A stretch of 39,333 bases of DNA from Agrococcus sp. HG114 (GTDB lineage: Bacteria > Actinomycetota > Actinomycetes > Actinomycetales > Microbacteriaceae). Every line of letters starts with the position of its first letter. The stretch's first letter is position 1. The stretch lies in NCBI RefSeq assembly GCF_024723325.1, contig NZ_JANQCH010000006.1, forward strand, positions 1 to 39,333, in the 5' to 3' direction. This document shows, piece after piece, positions 4,903 to 23,407 of this stretch. Made by a program: the position numbers and the translations under genes. The notes beneath the pieces are model-generated. The model saw nothing but the letters and a program-made list of their open reading frames with translations, ran no database searches and was not told where the DNA came from.

Positions 4903-7038
4903 GTGCTCAGTGGCGTGACCGCTCTGCGCCGCCCGTGGCCCGACCGCCGCGCTCGCGGCGTGCTGCCCCCCACCCGCCGCGCTGTCGCATCACCGAGCCA
5001 TCGAGCCGACATCCAGGCGCTCCGGGCGGTCGCGGTGGCCGCTGTGGTGGTCTGGCACCTCGATGCCGAGTGGCTGCCGTCCGGCTTCGCGGGCGTGGAC
5101 GTGTTCTTCGTGATCTCGGGCTACCTCATGACGCGCTCGCTCCTGCGCTCGGATCTCAGGTCTTCTGACCTGCTCGACTTCTGGGCGCGACGCTGCCGGC
5201 GCATCCTGCCTGCCGCCACGGTGGTCATCCTCGCCACCGTCGCTCTTGGGTGGTTCCTGCTGCCCGCGTCCGGCCGGGTGGCGCTGTCGACCCATGCGCT
5301 CTGGTCGTCGGTGTACCTCGAGAACTGGAGGCTGGCTCATGACGCGACCGACTACCTCGCGTCCCTAGAGCCGCCGTCCCCGTTCCAGCACTTCTGGTCG
5401 CTAGCGGTCGAGGAGCAGTTCTACCTGCTGTGGCCGGTGCTCCTCATGGCGGCCGCCGCGCTCGCGGCTCGTCTCGCCCAACCGCGCGTTCTCGTGGCGG
5501 CCATCGCAATCACCTCGGTGGTGGCGTCGTCGGCCCTGTGGTCGGTGCTGCTCGGATCGCATGATCCCGCTGGCTCCTACTTCGTCACCACGACTCGGCT
5601 CTGGCAGCTCGCCCTCGGTGGGCTGGTAGCAGTGCTGCCGGCGCTGCGCTCGGCGCACGCGGCCAGGGCCGTCTCCGCCGCAGGCGCCGTCGCGCTCGCG
5701 GCAGGGCTCGTGATGCTGCCGTCCGACCTGCCGTACCCCGGCTGGATCGCGTGGTGGCCGACGCTCGCCACAGCGCTCGTCGTCTGGGCCGCGTCGGCCG
5801 GCGAGCTCCCGGGTGTCGGCGCCATCATCCGGAGTCCCCTCGTGCAGCGGCTGGGCGACATCTCGTATTCGCTCTACCTCTGGCACTGGCCTGTCGCCGT
5901 GCTGCTGAACCCGTACCACCGGCCGATCGAGCTGCCCTCCGTCCACTCCCTCGTCGTGCTCGGCATCAGCCTCGCGTTGGCAGCGCTGACGTGGCGGTTC
6001 GTCGAGCAGCCGTTCCGTCAGACCACACCCGATCGGCCGTGGTCGTCGATGCGTGGCGGCTTGGTTCTTGCCTGCTGCTGCCTGTTCCTGGCGGTGGCGG
6101 TCAGCGGAGCAGGGCGACTCGTCGCGCCGTACGCACTGCAGCCTCAGGGTTACGAGGGCCCGCCCGACCAACTGCTCGGCGCGACGGCGATCCCCGCCGG
6201 CGCGACGGCGGCTGACATGCCGCTCGACGTGCCGGCGCGCTTCCTTCCGGCCCCGGCCGACATCGCCGCGGCGCTGCCGGAGAGCTACGGCGAGGGCTGC
6301 CATGCCGATGTCGCGACGGTCGTCCCGCGCGCGTGCGACTGGGGACGGGGTGACCGGGTGATCGCTGTCGTCGGCGACTCGCATGCGGCGCAATGGCTCC
6401 CGGCTGTGCAGCAGATCGGCGAATCCCGGGGTCTGCGCGTGGTCTCGCTGACGAAGTCGAACTGCCCTCTCACCGACTCGACGCCCGCGCTCGCCAGCGG
6501 TGGCGGCGCTTACCACCAGTGCAGTGCGTGGAACCGGGCCGTGATGGATCGGCTGCTGGAGGACCCGCCATCGCTCGTGCTGACGAGCAACGCAGACTTC
6601 GATCTCTGGATCGATGGCTCGGCAGTCGACGGCGCTGCGGATGAGACTGCCGTCGCTGCGGGCATGGCGTCTGCGTGGCGCGAGCTCGAGGATGCCGGCG
6701 TCGATGTGGTGGTGGTCCGAGACACACCCGCCCCGTCCTTCGCGATCGGAGCGTGCGTCGCGAACGAGGCGACTCGTCTCGAGCGATGCGCGATCGACCG
6801 GGCCCTGGCTCTGTCCGGAGCCGGGCGAGGGCAGCAGCTCGCCCTGCAGCGCGAGCCCCGCGCGACCGCGATCGACCTGAACGAGCACATCTGCGATGCC
6901 GACCGCTGCCCGGCCGTGATCGGCGGAGCGGTCGTGTACCGGGACCGCGGTCATCTGACGTCGACGTATGTGTCGACGCTCACAGGCGCGCTCGAGCAGG
7001 AGCTCGATCGGGTCGCACTGCTGCCCGCACGCTCCTGA
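4903..7038 (+). CDS. Acyltransferase-3 / SGNH fusion, polysaccharide O-acyltransferase (OafA-like)
   Basis: A 711-residue membrane enzyme that transfers an acyl group, usually acetyl, onto an envelope sugar. Residues about 30-400 are the acyltransferase-3 domain with roughly ten membrane helices. It opens with IQALRAVAVAAVVVWHL (catalytic-type His) and GVDVFFVISGYL, both typical of the family. From about residue 440 an extracytoplasmic SGNH hydrolase-like domain follows: block I is VVGDSHAAQW near residue 490 (nucleophile Ser), and the late RDRGHLTSTYV near residue 687 supplies the DxxH pair. The fusion matches known O-antigen acetylases, in which the SGNH domain completes transfer outside the membrane. 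It opens the plus-strand set leading into wzc and probably decorates the polymer encoded here. The acyl group and target sugar are inferred. Confidence 0.9.
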   Translation: MLSGVTALRRPWPDRRARGVLPPTRRAVASPSHRADIQALRAVAVAAVVVWHLDAEWLPSGFAGVDVFFVISGYLMTRSLLRSDLRSSDLLDFWARRCRRILPAATVVILATVALGWFLLPASGRVALSTHALWSSVYLENWRLAHDATDYLASLEPPSPFQHFWSLAVEEQFYLLWPVLLMAAAALAARLAQPRVLVAAIAITSVVASSALWSVLLGSHDPAGSYFVTTTRLWQLALGGLVAVLPALRSAHAARAVSAAGAVALAAGLVMLPSDLPYPGWIAWWPTLATALVVWAASAGELPGVGAIIRSPLVQRLGDISYSLYLWHWPVAVLLNPYHRPIELPSVHSLVVLGISLALAALTWRFVEQPFRQTTPDRPWSSMRGGLVLACCCLFLAVAVSGAGRLVAPYALQPQGYEGPPDQLLGATAIPAGATAADMPLDVPARFLPAPADIAAALPESYGEGCHADVATVVPRACDWGRGDRVIAVVGDSHAAQWLPAVQQIGESRGLRVVSLTKSNCPLTDSTPALASGGGAYHQCSAWNRAVMDRLLEDPPSLVLTSNADFDLWIDGSAVDGAADETAVAAGMASAWRELEDAGVDVVVVRDTPAPSFAIGACVANEATRLERCAIDRALALSGAGRGQQLALQREPRATAIDLNEHICDADRCPAVIGGAVVYRDRGHLTSTYVSTLTGALEQELDRVALLPARS

Positions 7039-7058
7039 GTCACGATCGCGGCTCCGGA

Positions 7059-7064
7059 TAGCCT
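7059..7064 (+). promoter_or_regulatory. Leaderless -10 element TAGCCT of the second phosphatase gene
   Basis: TAGCCT, six bases, ATG at 7071. The six bases include GGAGG, but it lies one base from the ATG, too close to act as an ordinary ribosome site. The gene may therefore have its own promoter as well as read-through from the acyltransferase gene, which ends 32 bases upstream. Confidence 0.5.
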
Positions 7065-7070
7065 GGAGGC

Positions 7071-7739
7071 ATGCCGCTACCGAGTCGAAGGAGCTCCTCC
7101 TCGTCGCCGAGCGCCGACGGAGTGTTCCGCGTGCTGACGGTGTGCTCGGGCAACCTCTGTCGCTCACCGCAGGCCGAGCAGCTGCTGCGCGCCCGCATCC
7201 CCGCCGCGTTCGGGCGCACCGAGATACCGGCTCTCGAGATCTCGAGCGCCGGGACGAAGGCGTTCGACGACGACCCGATGGACAGGCTCGCGGCGACCGA
7301 GGCGATGCGCCTCGGGATCGCGGAACCGCGCGCCCATCGTGCGCGCCGTCTGCGTGAACCTCACGTGGCGCAGGCTGACCTCGTCCTCGGCATGGGACGC
7401 GAGCATCGCGCGGCCGCCTCGAGCCTCGTGCCCTCGGCAGTTCGGCGCTCATTCACGCTCGTGGAGTTCGCGCGCATCCTCGAGGCGCTTGCGAACGGCA
7501 GTGTCGCCGCTTCGATCGCTCCGCTCGGCGCCGACGGTTTCGCGGCATTCATGCGGCGCGTCGTCGAAGCGGCAGTGACGGTGCGCGGGCTGATGCCCAC
7601 CCCAGAAGCTCCTGATGCCCTCGATGTCGAGGACCCGTACCGGCTCGAGCCGGACGTCTATCGGCGCTCGGCCGATGCGGTCGACGCGCTGGTCGCCAGC
7701 ATCGCGTCGGATCTCCGGGTGCTCGCCGACGGCCGCTGA
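7071..7739 (+). CDS. Low-molecular-weight protein tyrosine phosphatase (second copy, Wzb-like)
   Basis: A 222-residue phosphatase with loop CSGNLCRSP at residues 25-33 (Cys25, Arg31) and the late DPY motif in VEDPYRLEPDVYRRSAD. It is clearly paralogous to the 239-residue protein at 1768: similar middle insert, same FTLVEF and GADGFAAFM-type blocks. Its end is 34 bases before the BY-kinase start. That neighbourhood is the classic Wzb-Wzc pair, in which the phosphatase strips phosphotyrosines from the kinase tail and lets the polymerisation cycle continue. The substrate is therefore inferred with fair confidence. The first dozen residues are Ser-rich and probably disordered. Confidence 0.88.
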   Translation: MPLPSRRSSSSSPSADGVFRVLTVCSGNLCRSPQAEQLLRARIPAAFGRTEIPALEISSAGTKAFDDDPMDRLAATEAMRLGIAEPRAHRARRLREPHVAQADLVLGMGREHRAAASSLVPSAVRRSFTLVEFARILEALANGSVAASIAPLGADGFAAFMRRVVEAAVTVRGLMPTPEAPDALDVEDPYRLEPDVYRRSADAVDALVASIASDLRVLADGR

Positions 7740-7761
7740 TGCGACTACGCCGGTGTGAAAG

Positions 7762-7767
7762 GATGCT
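7762..7767 (+). promoter_or_regulatory. Weak -10-like hexamer GATGCT before the wzc-like gene
   Basis: GATGCT lies six bases before GTG at 7774, matching the spacing of the other candidate leaderless genes although it departs from TAG[C/G][C/G]T. A second in-frame GTG at 7813 would give a protein beginning MKLELSDYIR, closer to typical Wzz starts, so the true start is open. Confidence 0.25.
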
Positions 7768-7773: not shown

Positions 7774-9234
7774 GTGCCCGACCTTCTTGTCGCGCCGAGT
7801 CACGCACAGGGAGTGAAGTTGGAGCTGTCGGATTACATCCGCATCGTCAGGAAGTACTGGGTGCTCCTCGTCGCAGCCACGCTCGTCGGTGTCGGCATGG
7901 GCGCGATTGCCTCCCTGATGCAGAGGCCCGTGTACTCGGCGTCGACGCAGGTTTTCGTATCCCTTCAGGGCGGCGACACGACTGCTGAGCTCGCGCAGGG
8001 CAACACCTTCACGCTCTCGCGCGTCGCGACATATGCCAACCTCGTTGATTCGCAGCGCGTGCTCGACGGCGTGATTGAGTCGCTCGGCCTCGACGAGACG
8101 TTCTCGGCCCTCGACTCGCGCGTCAGCGCCACCACGGTGCCGGAGACCACGATCATCCAGATCACCGCGACGAGCAACGACCCGGCTGCGGCTGCGGCGC
8201 TCGCCGACGCCGCGGCTGCCAGCCTGTCGGAGACGGTCACGGCGATCGAGGCGCGACCTGATCAGACGAGCCCGGTGCAGCTCGCGGTCGTCGAACGCGC
8301 GTCGGTGCCGACATCGCCGATCAGCCCGCGCACGACCGTCAACATCGCCCTCGGTGCGCTGATCGCCCTCGGGCTCGCCGTGGGGTTCGCACTCCTCCGC
8401 GAGGTGCTCGACACTCGAATCCGCAACGAGCGCGACGTGCGCGCGGTGACTGCTGCCCCGATGCTCGGTGCGATCGCGTTCGACCCGAAGGCCAAGCAGC
8501 GGCCGCTCATCGTGCACGCCGACCCGCTGAGCCCGCGCTCCGAGCAGTTCCGCACGCTCCGTACGAACCTCCAGTTCATCGAGGTCGACGACGACTCACG
8601 CTCGATCGTTGTCACATCGGCGACGCCGGGTGAGGGCAAGAGCACGACGACGGCGAACCTGGCGCTCGCGATCGCGGACGCGGGGCAGACGGTCATCCTC
8701 ATCGACGCCGATCTGCGGAAGCCCAAGGTCGCCGAGTACATGAACCTCGACGGAGGTGTCGGCCTGACCGATGTGCTCATCGGCCGCGCTGAGCTCGTCG
8801 ACGCAGTGCAGCAGTGGGGCGCTAAGTCGCTCTACGTGCTGCCCGCTGGTCAGATCCCGCCGAACCCGTCCGAGCTCCTCGGATCCAAGGCCATGGCGAC
8901 GCTCTTGAAGGAGCTGCAGGCAGAGTTCGACTGGGTGCTGTTCGACGCACCACCGCTGCTGCCGGTCACCGATGCGGCGGTGCTCTCGAAGCACGTTGAG
9001 AGCGTGGTGATCGTCGCATCGGCGGGCAAGGCGACGAAGCACCAGCTCGAGACGGCGGTGCAGCTGCTCAACACCGTCGACTCGGACGTCAGTGGCGTCG
9101 TGCTGACAATGGTGCCCACGCGCGGCGCCGATGCGTACGCCTACGGGCACTACGGCTACGGCCACTATGGCTACATGGAGCGCAAGCAGCAGGAGCAGAA
9201 GGCGAAGCGCTTCGCGCTGCCCAAGGTGCGCTAA
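7774..9234 (+). CDS. Polysaccharide co-polymerase / BY-type tyrosine autokinase (Wzc-like)
   Basis: A 486-residue fusion of a Wzz chain-length domain and a cytoplasmic tyrosine kinase. Two membrane helices flank an external loop: WVLLVAATLVGVGMGAIA near residues 29-46 and IALGALIALGLAVGFALL near 191-208. The kinase has Walker A TPGEGKSTTT near residue 285, Walker A' VILIDADLRKP near 307 and Walker B WVLFDAPP near 388. The C-terminus carries a tyrosine cluster of alternating GHYGY units (six Tyr between about 451 and 465), the expected autophosphorylation tail. In characterised systems phosphorylation of this tail controls oligomerisation and chain length. The gene follows the phosphatase and overlaps the next gene by one base (TAATG). 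GTG at 7813 is a possible shorter start. Confidence 0.9.
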   Translation: MPDLLVAPSHAQGVKLELSDYIRIVRKYWVLLVAATLVGVGMGAIASLMQRPVYSASTQVFVSLQGGDTTAELAQGNTFTLSRVATYANLVDSQRVLDGVIESLGLDETFSALDSRVSATTVPETTIIQITATSNDPAAAAALADAAAASLSETVTAIEARPDQTSPVQLAVVERASVPTSPISPRTTVNIALGALIALGLAVGFALLREVLDTRIRNERDVRAVTAAPMLGAIAFDPKAKQRPLIVHADPLSPRSEQFRTLRTNLQFIEVDDDSRSIVVTSATPGEGKSTTTANLALAIADAGQTVILIDADLRKPKVAEYMNLDGGVGLTDVLIGRAELVDAVQQWGAKSLYVLPAGQIPPNPSELLGSKAMATLLKELQAEFDWVLFDAPPLLPVTDAAVLSKHVESVVIVASAGKATKHQLETAVQLLNTVDSDVSGVVLTMVPTRGADAYAYGHYGYGHYGYMERKQQEQKAKRFALPKVR

Positions 9235-10121
9235 TGCGGGCGATGTTCGGCGATCGTGCGAACGGCCGCCGACTCGCGCTCGGGCTCATCGCCGTGGCCG
9301 TGCTGCTCGTCGTCGATGTGATCCTCGTCGCCGTCGCGCTTCGAGCGCATGACGTGCCGCCGTCGGCCCCGGGGCCGACCGGCACTCAGCAGCCCCTCCT
9401 GCCGTCGGGCTCCCCGACGTCCTCGGGGGCACCGTCGCCCGATGCGACAGCGGCGGCCGAACCGACGGGCACCCGACTGCTCAGCGCCATCTCGAGCACA
9501 GTCGCGTGGAGGGCCGAGCAGGGCGCGTGCGGGGTGCCGGGTTCGATCGAGCTGACGACGGACGGCGGCCAGACGTGGACACCAGCCGACCTCGAGCTCG
9601 AAGGACCGGTGCTCGCGCTCGAGCCGAACGCCGACGGCAGGCGAGGCATCGTCGTCATGGCGGATGCGGCGTGCGAGCCCGTCGTGCAGCGTACGTTCAC
9701 CGGCGGGGTCGGGTGGGAGCTCGCGCCCGACCAGCGCCTCGGCAGCTACGTGGATGCGGACGGGACCGTGACGCTGGAAGGCGCCACTGTCGACGCTCCA
9801 TGTCAGCAGCCGCAGGCCGTGACGGCGAGCGGGGGCGGAGTCGTGCTGTGCGACGGCGTCGCGCAGGCGCGCTCGAGCAGCGGTCGTTGGGTAGGCGTCG
9901 CGCAAGATGTGGCCGCGATCGGCTCCGCCGAGGGAGGCGTCGCCGTCGTGCTGAGGAACGCCGAGGGCTGCGATGGGATGGCTGTCGGGATCATCCGCGC
10001 CGGTGCGCTGCAGTCGGCCTGCACGGCCATCCCCGCCGACGCTTCCGTCGCGCTGAGCGCGGGCGCGCCGGGCGACCTCTGGGTGTGGGTAGGGGACGCG
10101 CTCGAGATCGTCGAGCTCTGA
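9234..10121 (+). CDS. Membrane-anchored BNR-repeat protein of unknown function
   Basis: A 295-residue protein translated from an ATG that shares a base with the wzc stop codon, so the two are very likely co-translated. Residues about 13-36 (LALGLIAVAVLLVVDVILVAVAL) are a single membrane anchor, followed by about 45 Pro/Ser/Thr-rich residues. The rest is beta-rich and contains an Asp-box, LTTDGGQTWTP, near residue 107, with weaker copies later, as in BNR/sialidase-like propellers. Several spaced Cys residues suggest disulphides outside the cell. No sialidase active-site residues are evident, so I make no enzymatic claim. Coupling to wzc suggests an accessory role in export or length control of the polymer. 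Confidence 0.75.
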   Translation: MRAMFGDRANGRRLALGLIAVAVLLVVDVILVAVALRAHDVPPSAPGPTGTQQPLLPSGSPTSSGAPSPDATAAAEPTGTRLLSAISSTVAWRAEQGACGVPGSIELTTDGGQTWTPADLELEGPVLALEPNADGRRGIVVMADAACEPVVQRTFTGGVGWELAPDQRLGSYVDADGTVTLEGATVDAPCQQPQAVTASGGGVVLCDGVAQARSSSGRWVGVAQDVAAIGSAEGGVAVVLRNAEGCDGMAVGIIRAGALQSACTAIPADASVALSAGAPGDLWVWVGDALEIVEL

Positions 10122-10143: not shown

Positions 10144-11448
10144 TCAGTCCGTCGCCTGGCCCTTGCCGAGCACGATCCGCGGCGTGCCCTTCCAGAGGGC
10201 AGCGTCCGAGACGTTCCGACCGTCGACCAGGAGCTTGACGCCCGGGAGATCCCGCGCCGCAAGTGTGCGGTAGTCGGCGTGGTCGGTCTGGATGATCGCG
10301 AGATCGACTTCCTCGCCCGCTGCATAGGCCTCGAATCCGAGGTGTGCGAGCTCGTCATCGGAGTAGAGCGGATCGTGCACCTTCACCGAGGCACCTACGT
10401 TGCGCAGCGCTTCGGCGGTGGCGAAGACGCCCGAGAACGCCGTCTCCTTGACCCCGCCGCGATAGGCCGCGCCGAGCACGACGGCGCGCATGCCCTCCAG
10501 CCCCCCGAGGGTCGAGGCGGCGCGGGCGACGAGCCGCTCAGGCATCGAGGCGTTGAACTTGCGGGCGGTGCGCACGATCTCGGCGTCCGCGTCGGTCGAG
10601 AGGTACAGCCGGGGGTACACGGGGATGCAGTGGCCGCCGACCGCGATTCCGGGCCGGTGGATGTGGCTGTAGGGCTGCGAGTTGCAGGCCTCGATCACCT
10701 GGTACACGTCGACGCCGATCGAGTCGGCGTAGACCGCGAACTGGTTCGCGAGGCCGATGTTGACATCCCGATACGTCGTCTCGGCCAGCTTCGCCATCTC
10801 GGCGGCCTCCGCGCTGCCGAGGTCCCAGACGCCGTTCGGGCGCGCGAGGTCGGCTCGCTCGTCGAATGACAGCACCGCCTCGTAGAACTCGCGTGCCCGC
10901 TCCGCGCCGGCGGGGGAGAGTCCGCCGATCAGCTTGGGGTAGCGGCGCAGGTCCTGGAAGACCCGGCCGGTGAGCACCCGCTCAGGAGAGAACACGAGGT
11001 GGAAGTCCTCACCCTCGGTCAGGCCGGAGATCCGCTCGATCATCGGCTTCCACCGCGAACGAGTCGTGCCGACCGGCAGGGTCGTCTCGTAGGAGATGAG
11101 CGTGCCGGGCGTGAGGTGCTGAGCGAGTGAGGTCGTTGCGGCGTCCATCCACGCGAAGTCCGGCTCCCACGAGGCGTCGTCGACGAACAGTGGCACCACC
11201 AGCACGATCGCATCGGCTCCGGGGACCCCGTCCGCATAGTCGGTCGTCGCTCGCAGACGTCCTGCAGCGACGGCGTCCGACAGCTTCTCCTGCAGCTGCG
11301 CCTCACCGGGGAACGGCTCCCGACCAGCATTGATCAGCTCGACGGCGCGCTCGTTGATGTCGATGCCGACGACCTCGTGCCCTGCGTCGGCGAACTGGAC
11401 GGCGAGCGGGAGACCGATCTTCCCGAGGGCGATGACTGCGATGCGCAT
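10144..11448 (-). CDS. wbpA: Nucleotide sugar 6-dehydrogenase (UDP-GlcNAc dehydrogenase, WbpA-like)
   Basis: A 434-residue NAD-dependent dehydrogenase that oxidises C6 of a UDP-hexosamine to a carboxylate. The N-terminal Rossmann loop reads ALGKIGLPLA; the first Gly of the usual GxGxxG is Ala, which I believe is common in this actinobacterial subgroup. The active-site Cys lies in GGHCIPVYP near residue 261, and FSPERV and the C-terminal UDP-binding domain (GxAYRGGVKETAFS) are in place. An in-frame extension to 11703 exists, but ATG at 11448 begins the Rossmann fold directly and has GGGAGA upstream, so it is preferred. It is last in the minus-strand wbpD-E-B-A set, 26 bases after wbpB. That company points to UDP-GlcNAc as substrate rather than UDP-glucose or UDP-ManNAc. 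Confidence 0.85.
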   Translation of the reverse strand: MRIAVIALGKIGLPLAVQFADAGHEVVGIDINERAVELINAGREPFPGEAQLQEKLSDAVAAGRLRATTDYADGVPGADAIVLVVPLFVDDASWEPDFAWMDAATTSLAQHLTPGTLISYETTLPVGTTRSRWKPMIERISGLTEGEDFHLVFSPERVLTGRVFQDLRRYPKLIGGLSPAGAERAREFYEAVLSFDERADLARPNGVWDLGSAEAAEMAKLAETTYRDVNIGLANQFAVYADSIGVDVYQVIEACNSQPYSHIHRPGIAVGGHCIPVYPRLYLSTDADAEIVRTARKFNASMPERLVARAASTLGGLEGMRAVVLGAAYRGGVKETAFSGVFATAEALRNVGASVKVHDPLYSDDELAHLGFEAYAAGEEVDLAIIQTDHADYRTLAARDLPGVKLLVDGRNVSDAALWKGTPRIVLGKGQATD

Positions 11449-11474: not shown

Positions 11475-12470
11475 TCACTGCTGCTGGATGCGGACGGTCT
11501 CGCCGGTGCGAGCAGACTCGAGCGCAGCCTCGACGATCTCGAGCGTGTGGAGACCCTGCTCCATCGTGACAACGTCGCTCTCGAGGCCGAGCACCGCGTC
11601 CCGGAACGCCTCGTGCTCGACGCGCAACGGCTCGCGCTTCGGGAAGGCGAAGCGAGTGATGTCGCCCTCCGAGACGCCGCGGAACGATGAGATCGACTCC
11701 CACTCGACGTCTACGGTGCCGTTCGCGTAGAAGGTGAGATCACCCGCCATGGTGTCCGCGACGAAGGTCCCCTTCTCGCCGGTCACCGTAGTCAGTCGCT
11801 CCTTCATCGGGCTGAGCCAGTTGACCACGTGGTTGACGTTCACGCCGTTCTCGAGCTTGCCGGTGACCAGCACCATGTCCTCGTGCGGGCGCCCCGACTT
11901 CATCGCGGTCTGACCCGAGACACGCGCATACGAGCTGCCGGCGATCCAAGCGGTCAGGTCGATGTCGTGGGAGGCGAGATCCTTCCCGACTCCGACGTCG
12001 GCGATGCGCGCGGGAAACGGCCCTTGCCGTCGGGTTGCGATCTGGTAGACCGCGCCGAGCTCGTCGCCTTGAATGCGCTTGCGCAGCTGCTGGAGGGCAG
12101 GATTGAAGCGCTCGATGTGGCCGACCGCGCCGACGAGGCCCTTGGCGGCGAACGCATCGCGCATCCGCACACCTGCTTGGACGGAGTGCGCGATCGGCTT
12201 CTCGACGAGCGCGTGGACGCCGGCGTCGGCCAGTCGGAGCGCGACCTCCTCATGGAACTGGGTGGGCACCGCGACGACCGCCATGTCGACGCCCGTCTCG
12301 ATGAGGTCGTCCACTCCTTCGAGCACGGGGAGACCGCTCGCGGCGCCATGCGGATCGCCCATCGCGTCAGCGACAGCGACGAGCTCGACGCCGTCGAGGT
12401 CGCGCAGCACGCGCGCGTGATGCCTGCCCATCATGCCGAGCCCGATCAAGCCCGCCCGCAGCGCTGCCAT
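11475..12470 (-). CDS. wbpB: Gfo/Idh/MocA-family dehydrogenase (WbpB/WlbA-like, 3-oxidation of UDP-GlcNAcA)
   Basis: A 331-residue NAD(P)-dependent oxidoreductase. It opens with the Rossmann motif GLIGLGMMGRHHARVL (residues about 6-21) and has the family's catalytic-type EKP in VEKPIAHS near residue 92. Family members oxidise or reduce sugar hydroxyls. Next to a C6-dehydrogenase, an aminotransferase and a WbpD-type acetyltransferase, the expected reaction is oxidation of UDP-GlcNAcA at C3, feeding the 3-keto sugar to WbpE. Its ATG shares one base with the stop of wbpE (TGATG), so translation is coupled. Myo-inositol or other sugar dehydrogenase activity is possible in isolation, but the operon argues against it. 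Confidence 0.82.
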   Translation of the reverse strand: MAALRAGLIGLGMMGRHHARVLRDLDGVELVAVADAMGDPHGAASGLPVLEGVDDLIETGVDMAVVAVPTQFHEEVALRLADAGVHALVEKPIAHSVQAGVRMRDAFAAKGLVGAVGHIERFNPALQQLRKRIQGDELGAVYQIATRRQGPFPARIADVGVGKDLASHDIDLTAWIAGSSYARVSGQTAMKSGRPHEDMVLVTGKLENGVNVNHVVNWLSPMKERLTTVTGEKGTFVADTMAGDLTFYANGTVDVEWESISSFRGVSEGDITRFAFPKREPLRVEHEAFRDAVLGLESDVVTMEQGLHTLEIVEAALESARTGETVRIQQQ

Positions 12471-13567: not shown

Positions 13568-14159
13568 GTGCCAAAGCTCCTTCGTTCTCGAGGAATTCAT
13601 CGCCCGTCACCGGGCAGACGAAGCGATCGCCTCGGGCCTCGAGCCTCCGTCCTGCGGGACCGACCCAGCCAATCTGGCGGGCCGGCACGCCTGCCACGAG
13701 CGCGTAAGCCGGCACGTCGCGGATGACAACGGCGCCCGCAGCAATGGTCGCCCATTCGCCAATGGTGACTGGTGCCACGCAGACCGCGCGGGCCCCAATC
13801 GCCGCTCCGCGCCTGATGATGACTCCCACCGCCTCCCAGTCATCGGCGGACTTGACGGAACCGTCTTCGTTGATGGCGCGCGGATGCAAGTCGTTCGTGA
13901 GCACGGCCGAGGGGCCGATGAATACTCCGTCCTCGAGTGTCGCGGGTTCATATACGAGAGCCAGGTTCTGGATCTTGCAACGATCCCCGACCACAACGCC
14001 GGTGCCCACGTAGGCGCCGCGACCGATCGTGCACTGTTCGCCGATCACGGCGTACTCACGAACCTGCGCCAGATGCCAGACGATGGTCCCGGAGCCGACG
14101 CTGGCCCTCTCGTCGACATCCGCGGTGGGCAAGAATCTGGCCTGTACTGGAACGCTCAT
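13560..14159 (-). CDS. wbpD: UDP-3-amino-sugar N-acetyltransferase, left-handed beta-helix (WbpD/WlbB-like)
   Basis: A 199-residue acetyl-CoA-dependent enzyme of the hexapeptide type. The repeats begin at about residue 15 (SVGSGTIVWHLAQVREYAVIG). The segment FIGPSAVLTNDLHPRA near residue 80 closely resembles the WbpD/WlbB active-site stretch with its conserved Asn and Asp. A loop (EDGSVKSADDWE) follows, as in that family. It would acetylate the 3-amino group to complete UDP-GlcNAc(3NAc)A. The C-terminal 35 residues (after GVPARQIGWV) resemble the tail of family members, with one Cys. It is the first gene of the minus-strand set; TAGACT seven bases before ATG 14159 suggests a leaderless start. 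Confidence 0.87.
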   Translation of the reverse strand: MSVPVQARFLPTADVDERASVGSGTIVWHLAQVREYAVIGEQCTIGRGAYVGTGVVVGDRCKIQNLALVYEPATLEDGVFIGPSAVLTNDLHPRAINEDGSVKSADDWEAVGVIIRRGAAIGARAVCVAPVTIGEWATIAAGAVVIRDVPAYALVAGVPARQIGWVGPAGRRLEARGDRFVCPVTGDEFLENEGALARA

Positions 14160-14172: not shown

Positions 14173-14291
14173 GGCGTCTGGCAGTGTGACGGAGCTGCTC
14201 CGGCGCTGGGTTCAGGCGCTGTTCATCCCGCTTAGTGGTCTTCGGCTGCCAGTGATCCCGGCGGTCGCGCTTCGTGGCTCGGCACCGCGGG

Positions 14292-14297
14292 TAACCT
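14292..14297 (+). promoter_or_regulatory. Possible -10 element TAACCT for wzx-wzy
   Basis: TAACCT would start transcription near 14304, about 20 bases before ATG 14324. The leader shows no Shine-Dalgarno. It supports the shorter wzx start over GTG 14186, which is only 26 bases from the divergent wbpD start. Confidence 0.35.
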
Positions 14298-14323
14298 TGG
14301 GTGACTGGCTGATCACCGCGGTC

Positions 14324-16800: not shown

Positions 16801-18069
16801 TTACGCAATAAGGCGGTCGAGTGCTTCTGCAAGGTCGCTAGCTAGCGCTCCGTAAGAGTAGTTCTGAAGCACGTGCTCGCGTCCTCGTTGCCCCATCGCG
16901 TCGCGTTCAGAAGCGGGAAGCTCGGCCAGCTCGACGAGAGCTTCGGCCATCGCGTCGAGGTCGTCCGCTGGGACCACGATGCCTGCGTTCGCGTCGTCCA
17001 CCGGGTTGGCGTGGTTGACGCTCATAGCGATCGGACGACCCGCCAGGAGGTAGTCGAAGAGCTTGTTCGGACTGATTCCGAACCGATAGACCGGCTTGTC
17101 GGCCATTGCGATCACCAGCGCGTCGGCCTCTCGAGCAGTAGAGACCACTTGGGACCTCGGGATCTTGTCTTCGAAAGTGATCTGAGCCGCCGACGGCAGG
17201 CGCGCAGCCAACGCCTGCAGATCCTTCTTCAACGTGCCATCGCCGATGACGCGAAACCGCAGGTCTCTCTCCGGACGCATCGCGACCGCTCGATCGAAGG
17301 CATGCAGAAGATGATCGACGGCATTCGCCGGCCCCTGCGAGCCGAGATACATGAAGGTGAAGCTACCTGGCACACCGTCCGGCTCGGGTTCGTGATCGCT
17401 CGGAGAGGCTGACTCCGCGTCCTCAGCCTCGATACCGTTCGGTACCCAAAGGAACGCCTTCTCCGGTTCGCCGATGCTCTGCAGCCAAAGATCCAGGTTG
17501 CGCAGGGGAGACACGATCAACTGCGCATCTCGCGCGTTCTTCCGCATTACTCGCCGCAGCGTCCGCGCCAACGGGCCAGTCGGGCTGAGTTTTCCAAGGT
17601 CGATCAGATACTCCGGCCAGACGTCCCGCACTTCGAAGACGAAGGGCACGCCGTGGCGCTTGGCCAGTCGTGCACCCGCCCACGCTGCGAACGGGTGAAC
17701 AGTGCTGCCGATGACCACGTCGGGCTTGCGTACTCCTCGAGTCGCGGTCACCGAGAGGACGTGTGCGGCGAATGCAGTCATTCCGAGCAATCGCAGGCCC
17801 ATGGACGTGCCGTAGGCGTTGGTCCTCAAGATGACGGCGTCCACTCCGTTCTCTCGAACCTGCTGACGCCAGACGCCTCTTGGTAGGCGCTGGACGCCGT
17901 CCGGGTGGGAGGTGCTCGCAACGAACAGCGTGGTTTGCCAACCACGGCCGATCAGCTGTCTAGCGAGCCCAAGGTGTCGTCCTGCACGCCCGTCCTTCGA
18001 TGGAAGCGCCGCGTAGTGCTCAACGATCCACAACGAACGGGTCGAGTCAGCGGAGCGGTCGTGAATCAT
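16801..18069 (-). CDS. Glycosyltransferase family 4 protein (WbuB-like)
   Basis: A 422-residue GT-B enzyme with a single Rossmann-like acceptor domain, then a donor domain from about residue 225 (FTFMYLGSQGPANAVDHLLHAF). The donor-site signature reads FGISPNKLFDYLLAGRPI near residue 345, as in WbuB-type GT4 enzymes. VFEVRDVWPEYLIDLG near residue 144 is another motif of that branch. It is the only ordinary glycosyltransferase in the cluster and the last gene of the pgl-like chain, its ATG overlapping the pglD stop. It would add a sugar, perhaps the diacetamido uronic acid, to PglC-loaded bacillosamine; that donor assignment is inference. Confidence 0.87.
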   Translation of the reverse strand: MIHDRSADSTRSLWIVEHYAALPSKDGRAGRHLGLARQLIGRGWQTTLFVASTSHPDGVQRLPRGVWRQQVRENGVDAVILRTNAYGTSMGLRLLGMTAFAAHVLSVTATRGVRKPDVVIGSTVHPFAAWAGARLAKRHGVPFVFEVRDVWPEYLIDLGKLSPTGPLARTLRRVMRKNARDAQLIVSPLRNLDLWLQSIGEPEKAFLWVPNGIEAEDAESASPSDHEPEPDGVPGSFTFMYLGSQGPANAVDHLLHAFDRAVAMRPERDLRFRVIGDGTLKKDLQALAARLPSAAQITFEDKIPRSQVVSTAREADALVIAMADKPVYRFGISPNKLFDYLLAGRPIAMSVNHANPVDDANAGIVVPADDLDAMAEALVELAELPASERDAMGQRGREHVLQNYSYGALASDLAEALDRLIA

Positions 18070-18698
18070 CGTGCGGGCACTCCTCGTACGGTTGCTGCTT
18101 GGGCGACGTCTCTCGTCACACAGGCGGCTGCGCCGACGACAGCGCCTGCGCCAACGGTCAGGCCTTGGAGTACGACGGCGGCGGCACCGATCAATGCCTG
18201 CGCCTGGACGCAGACTTCGCCAGATATGACCGCCGCCGGGTTGATCGAGACGAAGTCGTCGAGCACCGCGTCGTGGCCGATCGTGGCATTGGGGTTGAGG
18301 TGCACATGGCGGCCGAGCCGCACGTTCGTCGACACCTGCACCCCGCTGCAGATCACGGTGCCCTCGCCGATTACGACCTGGCTGCCGAGCACAGCTGTGG
18401 GATGTACTACGACGGCGGGCGTATGGCCGCGTGCGAGCAGTCGTGCGTCGATCGCGGCGCGCGTGCGCGGGGCCCCGATAGCGACGAGGTATTCCACGCG
18501 CTCGTATCCTTCGAGCACGTCGACGCCGCCGAGATGCGACACACCCCGAGCCGCGAGCCGCTCCAGTGCCATGGAGGAGGGGGCGTCGTCGATCACGCCG
18601 AGCACCTGCCAGCGCGGCTCGACGCGGTTGGCGGCCTCGACGACGTCGAGTGCCTCACGACCGAAGCCGCCGGCGCCTATCACTACGAGGGGCCTCAC
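18066..18698 (-). CDS. pglD: Sugar N-acetyltransferase, NeuD/PglD family
   Basis: A 210-residue two-part enzyme. An N-terminal Rossmann-like UDP-sugar domain (VVIGAGGFGREALDVVEA, residues 4-21) is followed by a left-handed beta-helix from about residue 95, with HPTAVLGSQVVIGEGTVIC and the catalytic-type His in NPNATIGHDAVLDDFV. PglD enzymes acetylate the 4-amino group of UDP-4-amino-trideoxyglucose to finish UDP-di-N-acetylbacillosamine. GTG 18698 overlaps the stop of the preceding gene (GTGA) and puts the Rossmann motif right at the N-terminus, which decides the start against the longer open frame. NeuD-type sialic-acid O-acetyltransferase is the alternative, but no sialic-acid genes are present. 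Confidence 0.88.
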   Translation of the reverse strand: MRPLVVIGAGGFGREALDVVEAANRVEPRWQVLGVIDDAPSSMALERLAARGVSHLGGVDVLEGYERVEYLVAIGAPRTRAAIDARLLARGHTPAVVVHPTAVLGSQVVIGEGTVICSGVQVSTNVRLGRHVHLNPNATIGHDAVLDDFVSINPAAVISGEVCVQAQALIGAAAVVLQGLTVGAGAVVGAAACVTRDVAQAATVRGVPAR

Positions 18699-19315
18699 GC
18701 GGCACCCCGGCCCTGGAACTCCGGCATGGTCACGTGTCCCTGCGCCGAGACGCCGTCGCGGCGCAGCACGCCGACGACGGTCTCGAGCAGGATCCGGGCG
18801 TCGAGCACAAGACTGCGCTGTTCGACGTACTGCACATCGAGCGCGAATCGCTCCTCCCACGAGAGCGCATTGCGGCCGCGCGCCTGTGCGAGCCCGGTGA
18901 TGCCCGGCCGCACCTCGTGACGCCGGGCCTGCTCCGCCGTGTAACGCTCGAGGTAGGCCACAAGAAGCGGCCGCGGGCCGACGATACTCATGTCGCCCTT
19001 GAGCACATTCCATAGGCTCGGCAGCTCATCGAGGCTCGTGGCACGCAGCGCCTTGCCGAACGGCGTGAGGCGATCGGCGTCACTGATCAGCCCCCGCGCG
19101 GGGTCAGGGCTGCGCATCGAGCGAAACTTCGCCAACTCGAACACCCTGCCGTCCCGCCCCGGCCGAGACTGGCGGAACAGCACGGGCCTGCCGAGGTTCG
19201 CCGCCACCGCGATGCCGACGCCTGCGAGCACGGGGGAGAGCACGACGAGTGCCGAGCCTGCGGCAACGATGTCGAGCGCGCGCTTCAGGCGATCGTATGG
19301 GCGAGCGGGCGTCAT
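18695..19315 (-). CDS. pglC: Initiating monotopic phosphoglycosyl transferase (PglC-like)
   Basis: A 206-residue enzyme that moves sugar-1-phosphate from a UDP-sugar to undecaprenyl phosphate, beginning each repeat unit at the inner face of the membrane. It has the short form without the WbaP/WcaJ N-terminal helices. A basic N-terminus leads into a re-entrant hydrophobic segment (DIVAAGSALVVLSPVLAGVGI, a little over 20 residues with the conserved Ser-Pro). FRQSRPGRDG, the DE pair of TSLDELPSLWNVLKGDM near residue 93 and VGPRP follow. This compact form matches PglC, and its place between pglE and pglD supports di-N-acetylbacillosamine-1-phosphate as donor. Both ends overlap neighbours by four bases. 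Confidence 0.9.
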   Translation of the reverse strand: MTPARPYDRLKRALDIVAAGSALVVLSPVLAGVGIAVAANLGRPVLFRQSRPGRDGRVFELAKFRSMRSPDPARGLISDADRLTPFGKALRATSLDELPSLWNVLKGDMSIVGPRPLLVAYLERYTAEQARRHEVRPGITGLAQARGRNALSWEERFALDVQYVEQRSLVLDARILLETVVGVLRRDGVSAQGHVTMPEFQGRGAA

Positions 19316-20439
19316 CGGGCAGCGAGGAACTCGCGCACCGCGCCCGTCACGCGGGCGAACTGCTTGTCGGTGAGGGCCGACCCGGACGGCAATGTTAGGC
19401 CGGTCTCGAACAGGCGCTGCGCGTTGCCGTTGACAAAGGCGCGACGGTCGGCGAAGACCGGCTGCAGGTGCATGGGCTTCCAGAGCGCGCGGCTCTCGAT
19501 GCTGCGCTCGGCGAGGTAGGCCTGAAGCTCGGCCGGGGCGAAATGTGCGCGCTCGTCGACCACGATCGAGGTCAGCCAGCAGTTGTCTTCGGCGCCGTCG
19601 CCGCCGAAGATCTCCACGCCGCCGACATCGGCGAACAAGGCCGCATACTCCGCGCGGCGGGCACGGCGCCGCGCGATCATCTCATCGAGCCGCACGAGCT
19701 GGGCGCGGCCGAGCGCGGCCAGCAGGTTGGAGAGCCGGTAGTTGTAGCCGATGTCGACGTGCTCGTAGTGCGCGACCGGTTGCCGCGCCTGTGTTGCGAG
19801 GTAGCGCGTGCGCTGCGCGAGCGCCTCGTCGTCGGTGAGCAGCATGCCTCCACCCGACGTGGTCATGATCTTGTTGCCGTTGAACGACACGATCGAGGCA
19901 GCACCGAACGACCCGGCCGCACGGCCGCCGTGCGTCGCGCCAAGCGACTCCGCCGCATCCGCGAGCACCGGGATGCCGTGCTGGTGCGCGAGCGCCTCGA
20001 TAACCGTGTAGTCGACAGCCTTGCCGAGCAGATCGACGGGCACTATTGCTTTGGCGGGCGTGCCCTCGGCGGCGAGCGTGTTGAGGGCCTCGTTGAGGAG
20101 CGCGACATCCATATTGCCGGTAGCGAGGTCGCTGTCGATGAAGACCGGGGTGGCTCCTGTGTAGACGATCGCGTTGGCCGTTGCCGCGAACGTCATCGAC
20201 GACGTGACGACCACGTCGCCCGGGCCGACCCCTAGACCGAGGAGGCCGAGGTGGAGCGCTGCCGTGCCGCTCGATAGGGCGACGCCATGAGCCGCGCCGA
20301 CTCGCGCGGCGAGATCCTGCTCGAAGCCCTCGACGTCTGGGCCGAGCGGAGCGATCCATCCGGAATCCATTGCCGCGCGTACCGCAGCCTTCTCGGCCTC
20401 GCCGATGTCTGGCGAGGACATATAGATACGGTCGTTCAC
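19312..20439 (-). CDS. pglE: DegT/DnrJ/EryC1-type aminotransferase (PglE-like)
   Basis: A 375-residue PLP aminotransferase expected to convert the PglF product, a UDP-4-keto-6-deoxy sugar, to the 4-amino sugar. The N-terminus RIYMSSPDIGEAEKAAV, the cofactor Lys in SFNGNKIMTTSGGGML near residue 185 and LADAAESLGATHGG near residue 158 are those of the PglE/PseC/LegC-like subgroup. It differs clearly from the WbpE-like paralogue at 12470, whose Lys motif is YPTKN. The GTG start overlaps the pglF stop (GTGA), and its own stop overlaps the pglC start (ATGA). C4 specificity is inferred from the neighbours. Confidence 0.88.
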   Translation of the reverse strand: MNDRIYMSSPDIGEAEKAAVRAAMDSGWIAPLGPDVEGFEQDLAARVGAAHGVALSSGTAALHLGLLGLGVGPGDVVVTSSMTFAATANAIVYTGATPVFIDSDLATGNMDVALLNEALNTLAAEGTPAKAIVPVDLLGKAVDYTVIEALAHQHGIPVLADAAESLGATHGGRAAGSFGAASIVSFNGNKIMTTSGGGMLLTDDEALAQRTRYLATQARQPVAHYEHVDIGYNYRLSNLLAALGRAQLVRLDEMIARRRARRAEYAALFADVGGVEIFGGDGAEDNCWLTSIVVDERAHFAPAELQAYLAERSIESRALWKPMHLQPVFADRRAFVNGNAQRLFETGLTLPSGSALTDKQFARVTGAVREFLAAR

Positions 20440-22313
20440 CGAACCGCTCCTCTTCCGATCTGCATGTGCATGGACTGCTGCGCCGCACCGGTCAGGCTGT
20501 CGTCGTCGCTGTGGTCCTCGCGCAGGTTGCGCTCGTGCTCACGCGTCCAGTGGGCGTCCCAGCGGCCCTTGCTCAGCGCCGATGCGTCGAGCGGCTCGCC
20601 CCGAGCGTGGGTGATCTTCTCGTGGAACGGGCGATCGTCGTGCTCGCCGGCACCGATGAGCTCTTCGTGCAGCTTCTCGTGAGGGCGCAGCCCCGTGTAG
20701 ACGATCTCGATCGGCTTGCCCGACATGCGAATCATGCGCTTGGCCACGTCAAGGATCTTCACCGGCTCGCCCATGTCGAGGATGAGCACCTCGCCGGGAC
20801 GGCCGATGGCGCCGGCCTGCATCACGAGCTGGCACGCCTCGGGGATCGTCATGAAGTAGCGCGTGATGTCGGGGTGCGTGACCGTGAGTGGCCCGCCCGC
20901 GTCGATCAGTGCTTTGAAGGTGGGCAGCATCGAGCCTCGGCTGCCGAGCACGTTGCCAAAGCGGACTGACAGGTAACGGCCGACGCCGCGCTCCGCGTAT
21001 GAAGCAGTCAGCCGCTCGGCGAGGCGCTTCGAGTGGCCGAGCACGCTCGTCGGGTTGGCTGCCTTGTCGGTGGAGATGTTCACGAAGGTCTCGACCCCAG
21101 CGCGGAACGCGCCTTCCAGGACGTTCAGCGTGCCGAGCACGTTCGTCTTCCATGCCTCGTCGGGGTACTGCTCGAGCATCGGCAGGTGCTTGAGCGCCGC
21201 TGCGTGGAACACCACGTGGGGACGCCGCTCGGCCATCAGGTCGCGGATCGCCTCGGCATCGCGGATGTCCGCGAGCACGACGTCGTCAGTGTGAAGGAGA
21301 CCATGACCCGCGATCGAGATCTGCACCGCCTGCAATGCGGATTCGTCGCGATCGAGCATCATCAGCTCGGCGGGCCCGAAGCGCGAGATCTGCCGGCAGA
21401 GCTCGGCCCCGATGGACCCGCCGGCTCCCGTGACGAGCACTCGCTTGCCGGTGAGGTAGCTGGCGACGGATTCGATGTCGGTGTCGACGGGATGCCGCCC
21501 GATAATGTCTTCGATCGAGACGTCGCGCACGTCGCCCATCGCACTGCGCCCCTCGATGATGTCGTCGAGCGGAGGAAGCACGAGCACGCGCAGGTCAGCC
21601 TCGGCGGCCTGGTCGGAGATGCGCTGGAGCAGCGATGCGTCAGCACGAGCGATCGCGACGATGAGAGTCGTCGCGCCCGTCCTGCCCGCGATCTCGGCAA
21701 GTTGGTCGCCGGTACCCAGCACGTGGACGCCGGACCTCACGGCATTCGCGAGCTCCGGTGAGTCGTCGATGATGCCGACGGGGTTGAAGCGAGAGCGCGG
21801 ATCGGTCCTCATGCGCTTGATCAGGTTCGAGCCGACGAAGCCCGCTCCATAGACGAGGATCGGCACCGCGTCTCCATTGGGCCGGCTCGAGCGCTCCTGC
21901 ACGACACGACGGAAGTAGCGGGTGAGGGCCATCGCCAGGAACGCGAGCGGGGCCGCGATCAGCGCAGTGCTGCGCGGTACGCCGGCCTCGTTGCCAAAGA
22001 CCAGGATCGGGATGCCGATCAGCACCGTGGTGATGCCCACCGAGCCGGCGAGGCTGAGCACCTCGTCGAAGCTCGCGACGTGGTAGCGGCGGCGATAGAG
22101 CGACAGCATGAGGCCTGCCGCCAGCTGCGCGATCGCCGCAGCGAGCACCAGCACGAGCATTGCCACCCAGCTGGTGTTGTGGAAGCCGAACTCGAAGCGC
22201 AGCCAGACCGCTGCGACGAGAGCGACCATCCACGCGATGGCGTCGAAGATGAACTGGTGTACGCGCATCTTCGCGCGGAGTGCGCCCAGCGTCGTGCCGC
22301 TGCTCGCCGTCAC
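20436..22313 (-). CDS. pglF: UDP-GlcNAc 4,6-dehydratase, membrane type (PglF/WbpM/CapD family)
   Basis: A 625-residue enzyme. Four or so helices occupy residues 20-130, a first nucleotide-binding domain (VYGAGFVGSNLIKRM near 172) follows, then the catalytic SDR domain from about residue 292 (LVTGAGGSIGAELCRQI). HAAALKHLPMLE near 381 and NISTDKAANPTSVLGHSKR near 425 are family motifs. The usual SDR Tyr, Met in PglF/WbpM, is Leu here (VLGHSK); I believe this is common in actinobacterial members, with Asp and Lys of STDK doing the chemistry. It would remove water from UDP-GlcNAc to give the 4-keto-6-deoxy intermediate. GTG 22313 has GGAGGT four bases upstream. It heads the five-gene chain that ends with the GT4 gene. 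Confidence 0.9.
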   Translation of the reverse strand: MTASSGTTLGALRAKMRVHQFIFDAIAWMVALVAAVWLRFEFGFHNTSWVAMLVLVLAAAIAQLAAGLMLSLYRRRYHVASFDEVLSLAGSVGITTVLIGIPILVFGNEAGVPRSTALIAAPLAFLAMALTRYFRRVVQERSSRPNGDAVPILVYGAGFVGSNLIKRMRTDPRSRFNPVGIIDDSPELANAVRSGVHVLGTGDQLAEIAGRTGATTLIVAIARADASLLQRISDQAAEADLRVLVLPPLDDIIEGRSAMGDVRDVSIEDIIGRHPVDTDIESVASYLTGKRVLVTGAGGSIGAELCRQISRFGPAELMMLDRDESALQAVQISIAGHGLLHTDDVVLADIRDAEAIRDLMAERRPHVVFHAAALKHLPMLEQYPDEAWKTNVLGTLNVLEGAFRAGVETFVNISTDKAANPTSVLGHSKRLAERLTASYAERGVGRYLSVRFGNVLGSRGSMLPTFKALIDAGGPLTVTHPDITRYFMTIPEACQLVMQAGAIGRPGEVLILDMGEPVKILDVAKRMIRMSGKPIEIVYTGLRPHEKLHEELIGAGEHDDRPFHEKITHARGEPLDASALSKGRWDAHWTREHERNLREDHSDDDSLTGAAQQSMHMQIGRGAVR

Positions 22314-22477
22314 TGAGACCTCCGTTGTTGGCGTTGCGCCACAGGGAGTTCACACGCGCAACTGACCGATTCTTAAGCCTCCACGGTACCGCAGCCTGAG
22401 GTTGCGACCGGGCGAGGGCAGGGTGAACGGTCGGTGAAGCCTGCATCTTCGCGCGGTAGCCTCCGACGTGTGGGGGC

Positions 22478-22483
22478 TAGCGT
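22478..22483 (+). promoter_or_regulatory. Leaderless -10 element TAGCGT of galU
   Basis: TAGCGT, six bases (ATGCCC), then ATG at 22490. The spacing equals that of five other genes and selects the second of two in-frame ATGs. A further TAGCCT at 22457-22462 could give a short leader instead. Confidence 0.45.
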
Positions 22484-22489
22484 ATGCCC

Positions 22490-23407
22490 ATGCGGCACTC
22501 CGTCACCAAGGTCGTCATCCCGGCAGCCGGGCTCGGCACGCGATTCCTGCCCGCGACCAAAGCGCTGCCGAAGGAGATGCTGCCCGTCGTCGACAAGCCG
22601 GCGATCCAGTACGTCGTGGAAGAAGCGGTGCGCGTCGGGCTGCCGGATGTGCTGTTCGTGACCGGCCGCAACAAGAATGCGCTCGAGAACCACTTCGACC
22701 GTGCGACGGAGCTCGAGGCGATCCTCATGCGCAAAGGCGACGAGGAGCGGTTGCAGCGAGTCTCCGAATCGAGCGTCCTTGCGAATGTCCATTACGTCCG
22801 GCAGGGAGATCCGCTCGGACTCGGCCACGCCGTGCTGCGCGCGAAAGCGCACGTGGGGGACAATTCATTCGCCGTGCTGCTGGGCGACGATCTCATCGAT
22901 CCCCGCGACACCCTGCTCGAGCGAATGCTGCAGGTGCATGATCAGCGCGATACCTGCGTGGTCGCACTCATGGAAGTGGACGCGGCGCAAGCGCATCTCT
23001 ATGGCATCGCGACGGTCGAGCCGACCGACGAGGACGATGTCGTGCGAGTGCGCGGACTCGTCGAGAAGCCCGAGCCCGGCTCGGCCCCCTCGAACCTCGC
23101 GATCGTCGGCCGGTACGTGCTGAAGCCCGAGATCTTCCGTGTGCTCGAAGGCACCGCGCCAGGTCGCGGCGGAGAGATCCAGCTGACGGATGCGCTGCTC
23201 ACGATGGCCGAGGACGACGCCGCGGGCGGCGTCCACGGCGTCGTCTTCCGCGGCAGGCGCTATGACACGGGCGACAAGCTCGACTACATCAAGGCCAATG
23301 TGATGCTCGCGTGCGAGCGCGAGGATCTCGGCCCGGGTTTGCGCGAATGGCTCCGCGAGCACGTGCTCGAGATGGAGCGGCAGCCGGAAGTCGGACTCGC
23401 GACCTGA
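22490..23407 (+). CDS. galU: UTP--glucose-1-phosphate uridylyltransferase
   Basis: A 305-residue nucleotidyltransferase making UDP-glucose from UTP and glucose-1-phosphate, a general precursor for wall polymers and exopolysaccharide. KVVIPAAGLGTRFLPATKALPKEMLP is the complete GalU nucleotide-binding signature near residue 6. LLGDDLI, VEKPEPGSAPSNLAIVGRY and GRRYDTGDKLDYIKAN follow in the standard order, and the length is normal. ATG 22490 is chosen over ATG 22484 because TAGCGT lies exactly six bases upstream. Its place beside the capsule genes is typical, but neither special sugar pathway here needs UDP-glucose directly. Confidence 0.93.
   Translation: MRHSVTKVVIPAAGLGTRFLPATKALPKEMLPVVDKPAIQYVVEEAVRVGLPDVLFVTGRNKNALENHFDRATELEAILMRKGDEERLQRVSESSVLANVHYVRQGDPLGLGHAVLRAKAHVGDNSFAVLLGDDLIDPRDTLLERMLQVHDQRDTCVVALMEVDAAQAHLYGIATVEPTDEDDVVRVRGLVEKPEPGSAPSNLAIVGRYVLKPEIFRVLEGTAPGRGGEIQLTDALLTMAEDDAAGGVHGVVFRGRRYDTGDKLDYIKANVMLACEREDLGPGLREWLREHVLEMERQPEVGLAT

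Follow-up and report, generated by a model that had tools for sequence, protein, structure and literature searches.

The locus at positions 4903–23407 of a contig from Agrococcus sp. HG114 (contig C306, whose whole length of 39,333 nucleotides is called the window here) is probably a Wzx/Wzy surface-polymer locus of Microbacteriaceae, its gene content pointing to an acidic polymer of di-N-acetylbacillosamine (diNAcBac) and 2,3-diacetamido-glucuronic acid (GlcNAc3NAcA). Codon-position GC together with open frames gave sixteen open reading frames (ORFs), which were identified with NCBIfam, Pfam and solved structures (Table 1); the host genome comprises 2.59 Mb in 339 contigs with a completeness rating of 99.4%. 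Gene families, their linkage, their co-occurrence among genomes and the lack of a match in the host genome for two competing branch enzymes were observed directly. An initial annotation of the same stretch had proposed these families in this order, and both were confirmed by the profile and structure matches, Wzx only weakly; the families it named are present, but it omitted the ORF at 9234–10121 and the GalU gene at 22484–23407. Its proposal of two pathways whose sugars are likely used in one acidic polymer is supported by families, linkage and co-occurrence, and its Wzx/Wzy scheme is supported too, weakly as regards Wzx.

From these data we infer the substrates, repeat length, acylation target and wall attachment. 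PglF, PglE and PglD would produce UDP-diNAcBac, and PglC would place diNAcBac-1-phosphate on undecaprenyl phosphate, while WbpA, WbpB, WbpE and WbpD would supply UDP-GlcNAc3NAcA in its gluco form. The GT4 enzyme would then attach GlcNAc3NAcA to undecaprenyl-pyrophosphate-linked diNAcBac, a flippase would move the disaccharide outward and Wzy would polymerise it, with Wzc and the phosphatase exerting control. The AT3-SGNH protein would O-acylate the polymer, and an LCP protein encoded elsewhere would probably attach it to the wall, giving a teichuronic-acid-like polymer.

The two sugar cassettes

The diNAcBac gene set is complete in the locus, which holds a 4,6-dehydratase, a 4-aminotransferase, a PglD-type acetyltransferase and a PglC-type phosphoglycosyltransferase (PGT). 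The best solved relative of PglF is Campylobacter jejuni WlaL (PglF) at 271 bits, and that of PglC is Campylobacter PglC at 199 bits, the next protein scoring 122 (49% identity over 195 residues). PglE matched 7b0m at 246 bits and then, at 231 bits, 1o61, which we take to be C. jejuni PglE; LegC and PglE yield the same UDP-4-amino sugar. The likely product of PglF, PglE and PglD is UDP-di-N-acetylbacillosamine. Legionaminic acid was considered and rejected, as the host genome held no match to PF03102 (NeuB-type synthase; control positive in 9/14).

The uronic acid genes also form a unit, the 6-dehydrogenase, 3-dehydrogenase, 3-aminotransferase and 3-N-acetyltransferase being present together, and their product is likely to be UDP-GlcNAc3NAcA. 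WbpD is 47% identical over 182 residues to 3mqg, presumably WlbB. The reference list of PMC10622841, a source seen here in part, also names 3mqg as WlbB. Relatives were counted in 299 family genomes drawn from a larger group, with the best 5–10 candidates scored per genome, and these counts may be low. WbpB relatives occurred in 59 of the 299 (78 of 394 genomes and 37 of 137 genera at class level) and WbpA relatives in 55, and 29 class windows around WbpB contained WbpE in every case and WbpD in 28. PglE relatives at E 1e-70 were found in 34 of the 299 family genomes; 30 short windows around PglE, host included, held PglF in 29, PglC in 23 and PglD in 17.

ManNAc3NAcA, the manno form, was rejected for the host: its 99.4%-complete genome gave no match to PF02350 (2-epimerase), a search for which the control was positive in 11/14. 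Since no such match was found, the gluco form is expected. In the available part of PMC10622841, UDP-GlcNAc3NAcA epimerases are distinguished by changes of a conserved Arg to Trp, of His/Gln to Tyr and of Leu/Met to Ala. Among 2-epimerases on WbpB-bearing fragments, 19 of 20 carried both Tyr and Trp; on fragments without WbpB, Arg stood at the Trp position in 18 of 20 (one of these, L186, with Tyr), and Tyr and Trp were found in 2/20. The WbpB genes belonging to the loci of the Tyr/Trp epimerases L004 and L134 lie on other fragments (L036 and L053). The Tyr and Trp positions were located from motif and spacing rather than by aligning the Thermus protein. The table counts fragments, and each of the pairs L004/L036, L235/L267 and L028/L060 stands for a single place; fragments with fewer than 200 aligned residues were left out. 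The split between Tyr/Trp and Arg may partly be due to shared ancestry. Two observations count against reading it as a substrate signature: the WbpB-linked epimerase of L070 (28% identity) has His and Gln instead of Tyr and Trp, and the Ala change was not seen in the 19 Tyr/Trp WbpB-linked epimerases, 18 of which have Leu, with one unread.

A related locus, L255, from a 7.1 Mb genome, encodes in order WbpE (60%), WbpB (62%), a GT2 with a TarS linker domain, WbpA (64%) and a 4-epimerase, beyond which lie divergent glycosyltransferases and a 2-epimerase. This is the order implied by the names utrA–E and utrF–H in the accessible portion of PMC13274773; the comparison is with the names, not with the S. 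griseus sequence itself. According to the same source, Streptomyces polymers contain ManNAc3NAcA and GlcNAc3NAcA, and the utr polymer was solved by nuclear magnetic resonance (NMR). No WbpD was found within the 20 kb of L255, which fits less well. In the sibling genome G223, a 2-epimerase gene (L036:8407–9462) adjoins the same WbpADEB genes, and the manno form is therefore predicted in G223, as against a predicted gluco form in the host.

Pairing of the cassettes and comparison with known systems

Comparing the locus across Microbacteriaceae, as had been suggested, we found WbpB and PglE together in 18 of the 299 family genomes, host included, compared with 6.7 expected (p 3.7e-6). In eight, from seven genera, PglE and WbpB are co-located at ≤25 kb (the host G000, G223, G200, G218, G234, G143, G285 and G074), and a pairing unique to the host genome is thus rejected. 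PglF, PglE, PglC and PglD relatives occur all together in G000, G200, G143 and G074. The best 80 of 578 named PglE loci, with flanks of ≤10 kb, came from many actinobacterial genera (among them Microbacterium, Corynebacterium, Micromonospora, Nocardioides and Brevibacterium) and beyond. None of these 80 had a WbpB relative of ≥50% identity inside its flanks, and one, L205, showed weaker matches (WbpB 28%, WbpE 46%).

The distribution of the GT4 gene is the best pointer to an enzyme that joins both sugars, a hint drawn from sequence comparison. Relatives above 200 bits were present in four of the seven other co-located loci (G223, G234, G218 and G200), compared with two of the best 80 named PglE loci (L142 and L199; Fisher p 2e-4) and none of 53 other WbpD loci (p 7e-5). 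WbpD was found in 79 genomes, host included; 59 stretches from 57 of the remaining genomes were fetched, and the 53 loci compared are those in which no PglE relative of ≥50% was seen. Several features of this survey weigh against a strict coupling. Only three of the seven other loci (G200, G143, G074) have the full PglF/E/C/D set, GT4 matches are weak in G143, G285 and G074, and the strong relatives in L142 and L199 have no Wbp cassette in view. PglF relatives were missing from the stretches fetched for G218 and G285, and PglD relatives from those for G223 and G234; the PGT of G223 is only 48% identical.

In G234, from another genus, the gene order is LCP (adjoining Wzc and judged by eye), Wzc, tyrosine phosphatase, PglF, PglE, PglC-GNAT, ATP-grasp, GT4, flippase-like, Wzy-like, WbpA, WbpD, WbpE and WbpB. 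Its PglC-like transferase and a GNAT acetyltransferase form one fusion protein (L128:15818–17089), which is followed by the ATP-grasp protein, with no PglD seen; perhaps the 4-amino sugar of G234 carries a different N-acyl group. In G200, genes for the acetamidino-modification proteins WbuX, HisH and AglZ/HisF2 adjoin WbpADEB (L064:11911–14506), AglZ/HisF2 scoring over its cut-off; these modifiers are known from Pseudomonas diamino-uronic O antigens.

Each sugar and their pairing are already known elsewhere; the only new point is that a single family of Gram-positive bacteria shows the pairing repeatedly. The initial annotation had treated the PglFED and WbpABED pathways as a Gram-negative speciality, which does not hold: diNAcBac occurs in the exopolysaccharide of Bacillus subtilis and diacetamido uronic acids in Streptomyces teichuronic acids, as far as the consulted parts of the sources go. 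The descriptions that follow rest on such parts. For B. subtilis EpsA–O, also Gram-positive, a PglC-like PGT is reported to put diNAcBac first on undecaprenyl phosphate and a GT4 to act second, but the repeat there has six sugars with pyruvate and no diacetamido uronic acid (PMC10653937, PMC11447030). The teichuronic acids of Streptomyces griseus and S. antibioticus (utr cluster) are likewise actinobacterial and contain O-acetylated diacetamido uronic acids, and relatives of WbpE, WbpB and WbpA stand in utr-like order in L255. Their second sugar, however, is GalNAc or none, with no diNAcBac reported in the part seen, and their assembly is predicted to proceed on wall teichoic acid through TarS/TarM-like transferases rather than by Wzx/Wzy (PMC13274773). 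The Acinetobacter baumannii K15 capsule consists solely of QuiNAc4NAc and GlcNAc3NAcA, but it is a Gram-negative capsule with a tetrasaccharide repeat, likened here by its sugars and not its genes (PMC10715181). In the Neisseria elongata pgl glycan, diNAcBac and a di-N-acetyl hexuronic acid share one glycan, which is a protein-linked tetrasaccharide and no polymer (PMC6959607). A 1999 title cited in PMC5817068, also seen in part, concerns diacetamido uronic acids in Gram-positives as well. In the open-licence literature we found no Gram-positive polymer with both sugars and no paper coupling Microbacteriaceae with bacillosamine, and literature on Propionibacterium and Microbacteriaceae wall polymers yielded nothing relevant.

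For a large family, this probable reading predicts a specific structure of the wall or capsule polymer. It also yields a rule by which related loci can be interpreted from their two cassettes, and a compact group of enzymes with which a polymer of both rare diacetamido sugars could be made. Streptomyces umbrella toxins have a diacetamido-uronic polymer as a receptor (PMC13274773, in the part available), and polymer type may therefore decide which competitors can attack. More tentatively, GlcNAc3NAcA and diNAcBac might alternate strictly in an O-acylated teichuronic acid, which would be the first polymer of both sugars in a Gram-positive bacterium. It would be made by a Wzx/Wzy route repeatedly assembled in Microbacteriaceae from two exchangeable sugar cassettes, with a GT4 dedicated to joining them, and CWB2 proteins such as that encoded at 31671–34118 would perhaps bind it as their wall ligand.

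Repeat length and alternative products

A disaccharide repeat is plausible, since the locus encodes one PGT and one GT4 and G234 has nearly the same minimal set. The same repeat had been proposed initially on the basis of one PGT and one ordinary glycosyltransferase; the argument is reasonable, but the locus does not settle it because 14 GT2 matches, six of them on contig C187, lie elsewhere in the host genome. Accordingly, a less favoured but serious alternative is that both sugars are used in a repeat longer than a disaccharide, with at least one glycosyltransferase encoded outside the locus. Besides the GT2 matches, the G200 locus, which by eye apparently holds more glycosyltransferases, and the tetrasaccharide of the same two sugars in A. 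baumannii K15 (PMC10715181, as seen in part) speak for a longer repeat. On the other side, genes of other kinds flank the locus within its 39 kb contig, to the left and to the right, and the set of one PGT and one GT4 recurs in G234. Like the GT2 matches, a second PGT locus on contig C283 and a second UDP-sugar dehydrogenase on contig C297 of the host genome speak against assigning a disaccharide with confidence.

It is unlikely that WbpB, WbpE and WbpD make neutral UDP-GlcNAc3NAc while WbpA makes a separate uronic acid, e.g. UDP-GlcNAcA, although several results lean that way and against UDP-GlcNAc3NAcA. In profile searches WbpB scored 108 bits with GnnA and 72 bits with WlbA; it also matched NF040723, an archaeal UDP-GlcNAc 3-dehydrogenase model, at 208.6 bits, under the cut-off of 450. 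Counting against the preferred reading in general, WbpE structures were among the solved matches of WbpE but none was the best, the protein being not specifically WbpE-like. A close WbpA is lacking in 6 of the 59 WbpB genomes when split genes are counted as present: of eight without one at first count, two have split genes, three only distant dehydrogenases (29–34%) and three none at E 1e-20. Nevertheless, WbpA co-occurs in 51 of the 59 (53 with split genes), WbpD is closest to the WlbB-type 3mqg, and the gene order of the related L255 agrees with that of a cluster whose diacetamido uronic acids were proven by NMR. A structure model of WbpB (predicted local distance difference test, pLDDT, 89.3) did not separate the candidates, as GnnA, WlbA and numerous further sugar dehydrogenases all came up in the fold searches. 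Since the sequence of WbpB resembles GnnA more closely than WlbA, C3 oxidation may precede C6 oxidation; the end product, UDP-GlcNAc3NAcA in the preferred reading, would be the same under either order.

Comparably improbable is an initiating sugar other than diNAcBac, either a different 4-amino sugar or one with another N-acyl group. The LegC-family match of PglE is under its cut-off, PglD finds its best solved relative in VioB (103 bits), which also weighs against diNAcBac, and G234 has the GNAT–PglC fusion with no PglD relative seen. PglC and PglF are, however, closest to the Campylobacter diNAcBac enzymes, and PglD exceeds the NeuD/PglB/VioB model cut-off. In all, comparison with solved structures bore out the first assignments for PglF, PglC and WbpD, whereas WbpB and WbpE were not closest to WlbA and WbpE.

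Very improbably, the oligosaccharide decorates proteins and the Wzy_C protein is an O-oligosaccharyltransferase: this protein matches TfpM (O-linking oligosaccharyltransferase) at 29.5 bits against a cut-off of 600, and diNAcBac with diNAcHexA is reported in one protein-linked glycan of Neisseria elongata (PMC6959607, part seen), but Wzy_C is over its Pfam cut-off, a Wzc copolymerase and phosphatase share the locus, and Wzc is also found in the G223 and G234 loci.

Assembly genes and surroundings

A Wzy polymerase and a Wzc copolymerase, the latter with a P-loop and a Tyr-rich tail, are both present, as in a Wzx/Wzy system. Wzx is the weakest label of the locus. No Pfam or NCBIfam match was found for it; a profile search gave a weak match to a Polysacc_synt_3 protein (E 7.7e-4, probability 25%), and a search against solved structures returned pentatricopeptide chains only, over 22 columns, which we consider spurious. 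In G234, a 38% identical protein occupies the Wzx position in the same gene order. The AT3-SGNH protein, with a SucT-like match far under cut-off, is a candidate for O-acylating the polymer; Streptomyces is known to have diacetamido uronic acids that are O-acetylated (PMC13274773, part seen). No LCP match was found in the window, a point against the preferred reading, and the host genome has three LCP matches elsewhere.

Table 1. Genes of the polymer locus, with window positions and the basis of each label
Feature	Position	Strand	Basis
AT3-SGNH membrane O-acyltransferase	4903..7038	+	Pfam Acyl_transf_3 109.5 bits, SGNH 106.8 bits
Low-molecular-weight tyrosine phosphatase	7071..7739	+	Pfam LMWPc 61.6 bits; CSGNLCR motif
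Wzc-like single-chain copolymerase/tyrosine kinase	7774..9234	+	TIGR01007 185.8 bits, cut-off 108; Wzz 44 bits
Protein with one transmembrane segment and Asp-box-like motif	9234..10121	+	hydrophobic segment 18–36; relatives beside Wzc/phosphatase
WbpA-like UDP-sugar 6-dehydrogenase	10144..11448	-	TIGR03026 312 bits, cut-off 190; GGHCIP
WbpB-like UDP-sugar 3-dehydrogenase (Gfo/Idh/MocA)	11475..12470	-	sequence nearer GnnA than WlbA
WbpE-like 3-aminotransferase (DegT family)	12470..13600	-	Pfam DegT 410.8 bits
WbpD/WlbB-like N-acetyltransferase	13560..14159	-	3mqg 146 bits, next 81
Putative Wzx flippase	14186..15577	+	12 hydrophobic segments; position; weak profile match
Wzy-type polymerase	15574..16800	+	Pfam Wzy_C 50 bits, cut-off 31.7; 11 hydrophobic segments
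GT4 glycosyltransferase	16801..18069	-	Pfam GT4 domains; mainly in loci with both cassettes
PglD-like N-acetyltransferase	18066..18698	-	TIGR03570 (NeuD/PglB/VioB model) 189 bits, cut-off 161
PglC-like phosphoglycosyltransferase	18695..19315	-	Campylobacter PglC match; SLDELP and PRP motifs
PglE/LegC-like 4-aminotransferase	19312..20439	-	TIGR04181 338 bits, under cut-off 420
PglF-like full-length UDP-GlcNAc 4,6-dehydratase	20436..22313	-	Polysacc_synt_2 346 bits and CoA_binding_3; C. jejuni WlaL
GalU UTP-glucose-1-phosphate uridylyltransferase	22484..23407	+	TIGR01099 333.5 bits, cut-off 326.8

The protein encoded at 9234–10121 gave no Pfam or NCBIfam match; its DGG-TW motif is presumably Asp-box-like. 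Relatives lie beside Wzc and the phosphatase in six other loci, three from Microbacteriaceae with PglF, one in G223 and two from Corynebacterium (L141 and L163), and the protein may work together with Wzc or bind the polymer.

GC in 1 kb steps is 63–71% at 7–24 kb, compared with 70–78% for the remaining window. Directly adjoining this lower-GC polymer locus is an Lsr2 gene (23462–23806) with both Pfam domains; Lsr2 is a silencer of AT-richer foreign DNA. The ORF at 1768–2487 encodes another low-molecular-weight tyrosine phosphatase, which shares its family with the 7071–7739 protein. The ORF at 31671–34118 encodes a surface protein with three CWB2 stretches, and CWB2 is described as the anchor of C. 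difficile proteins on an anionic wall polymer (PMC4973711, in the part seen). Finally, the ORF at 25331–27055 encodes a single protein with trypsin-like and CAP domains, and in the sibling genome G223 (L126) a trypsin-like relative, judged by eye, lies near PglF.

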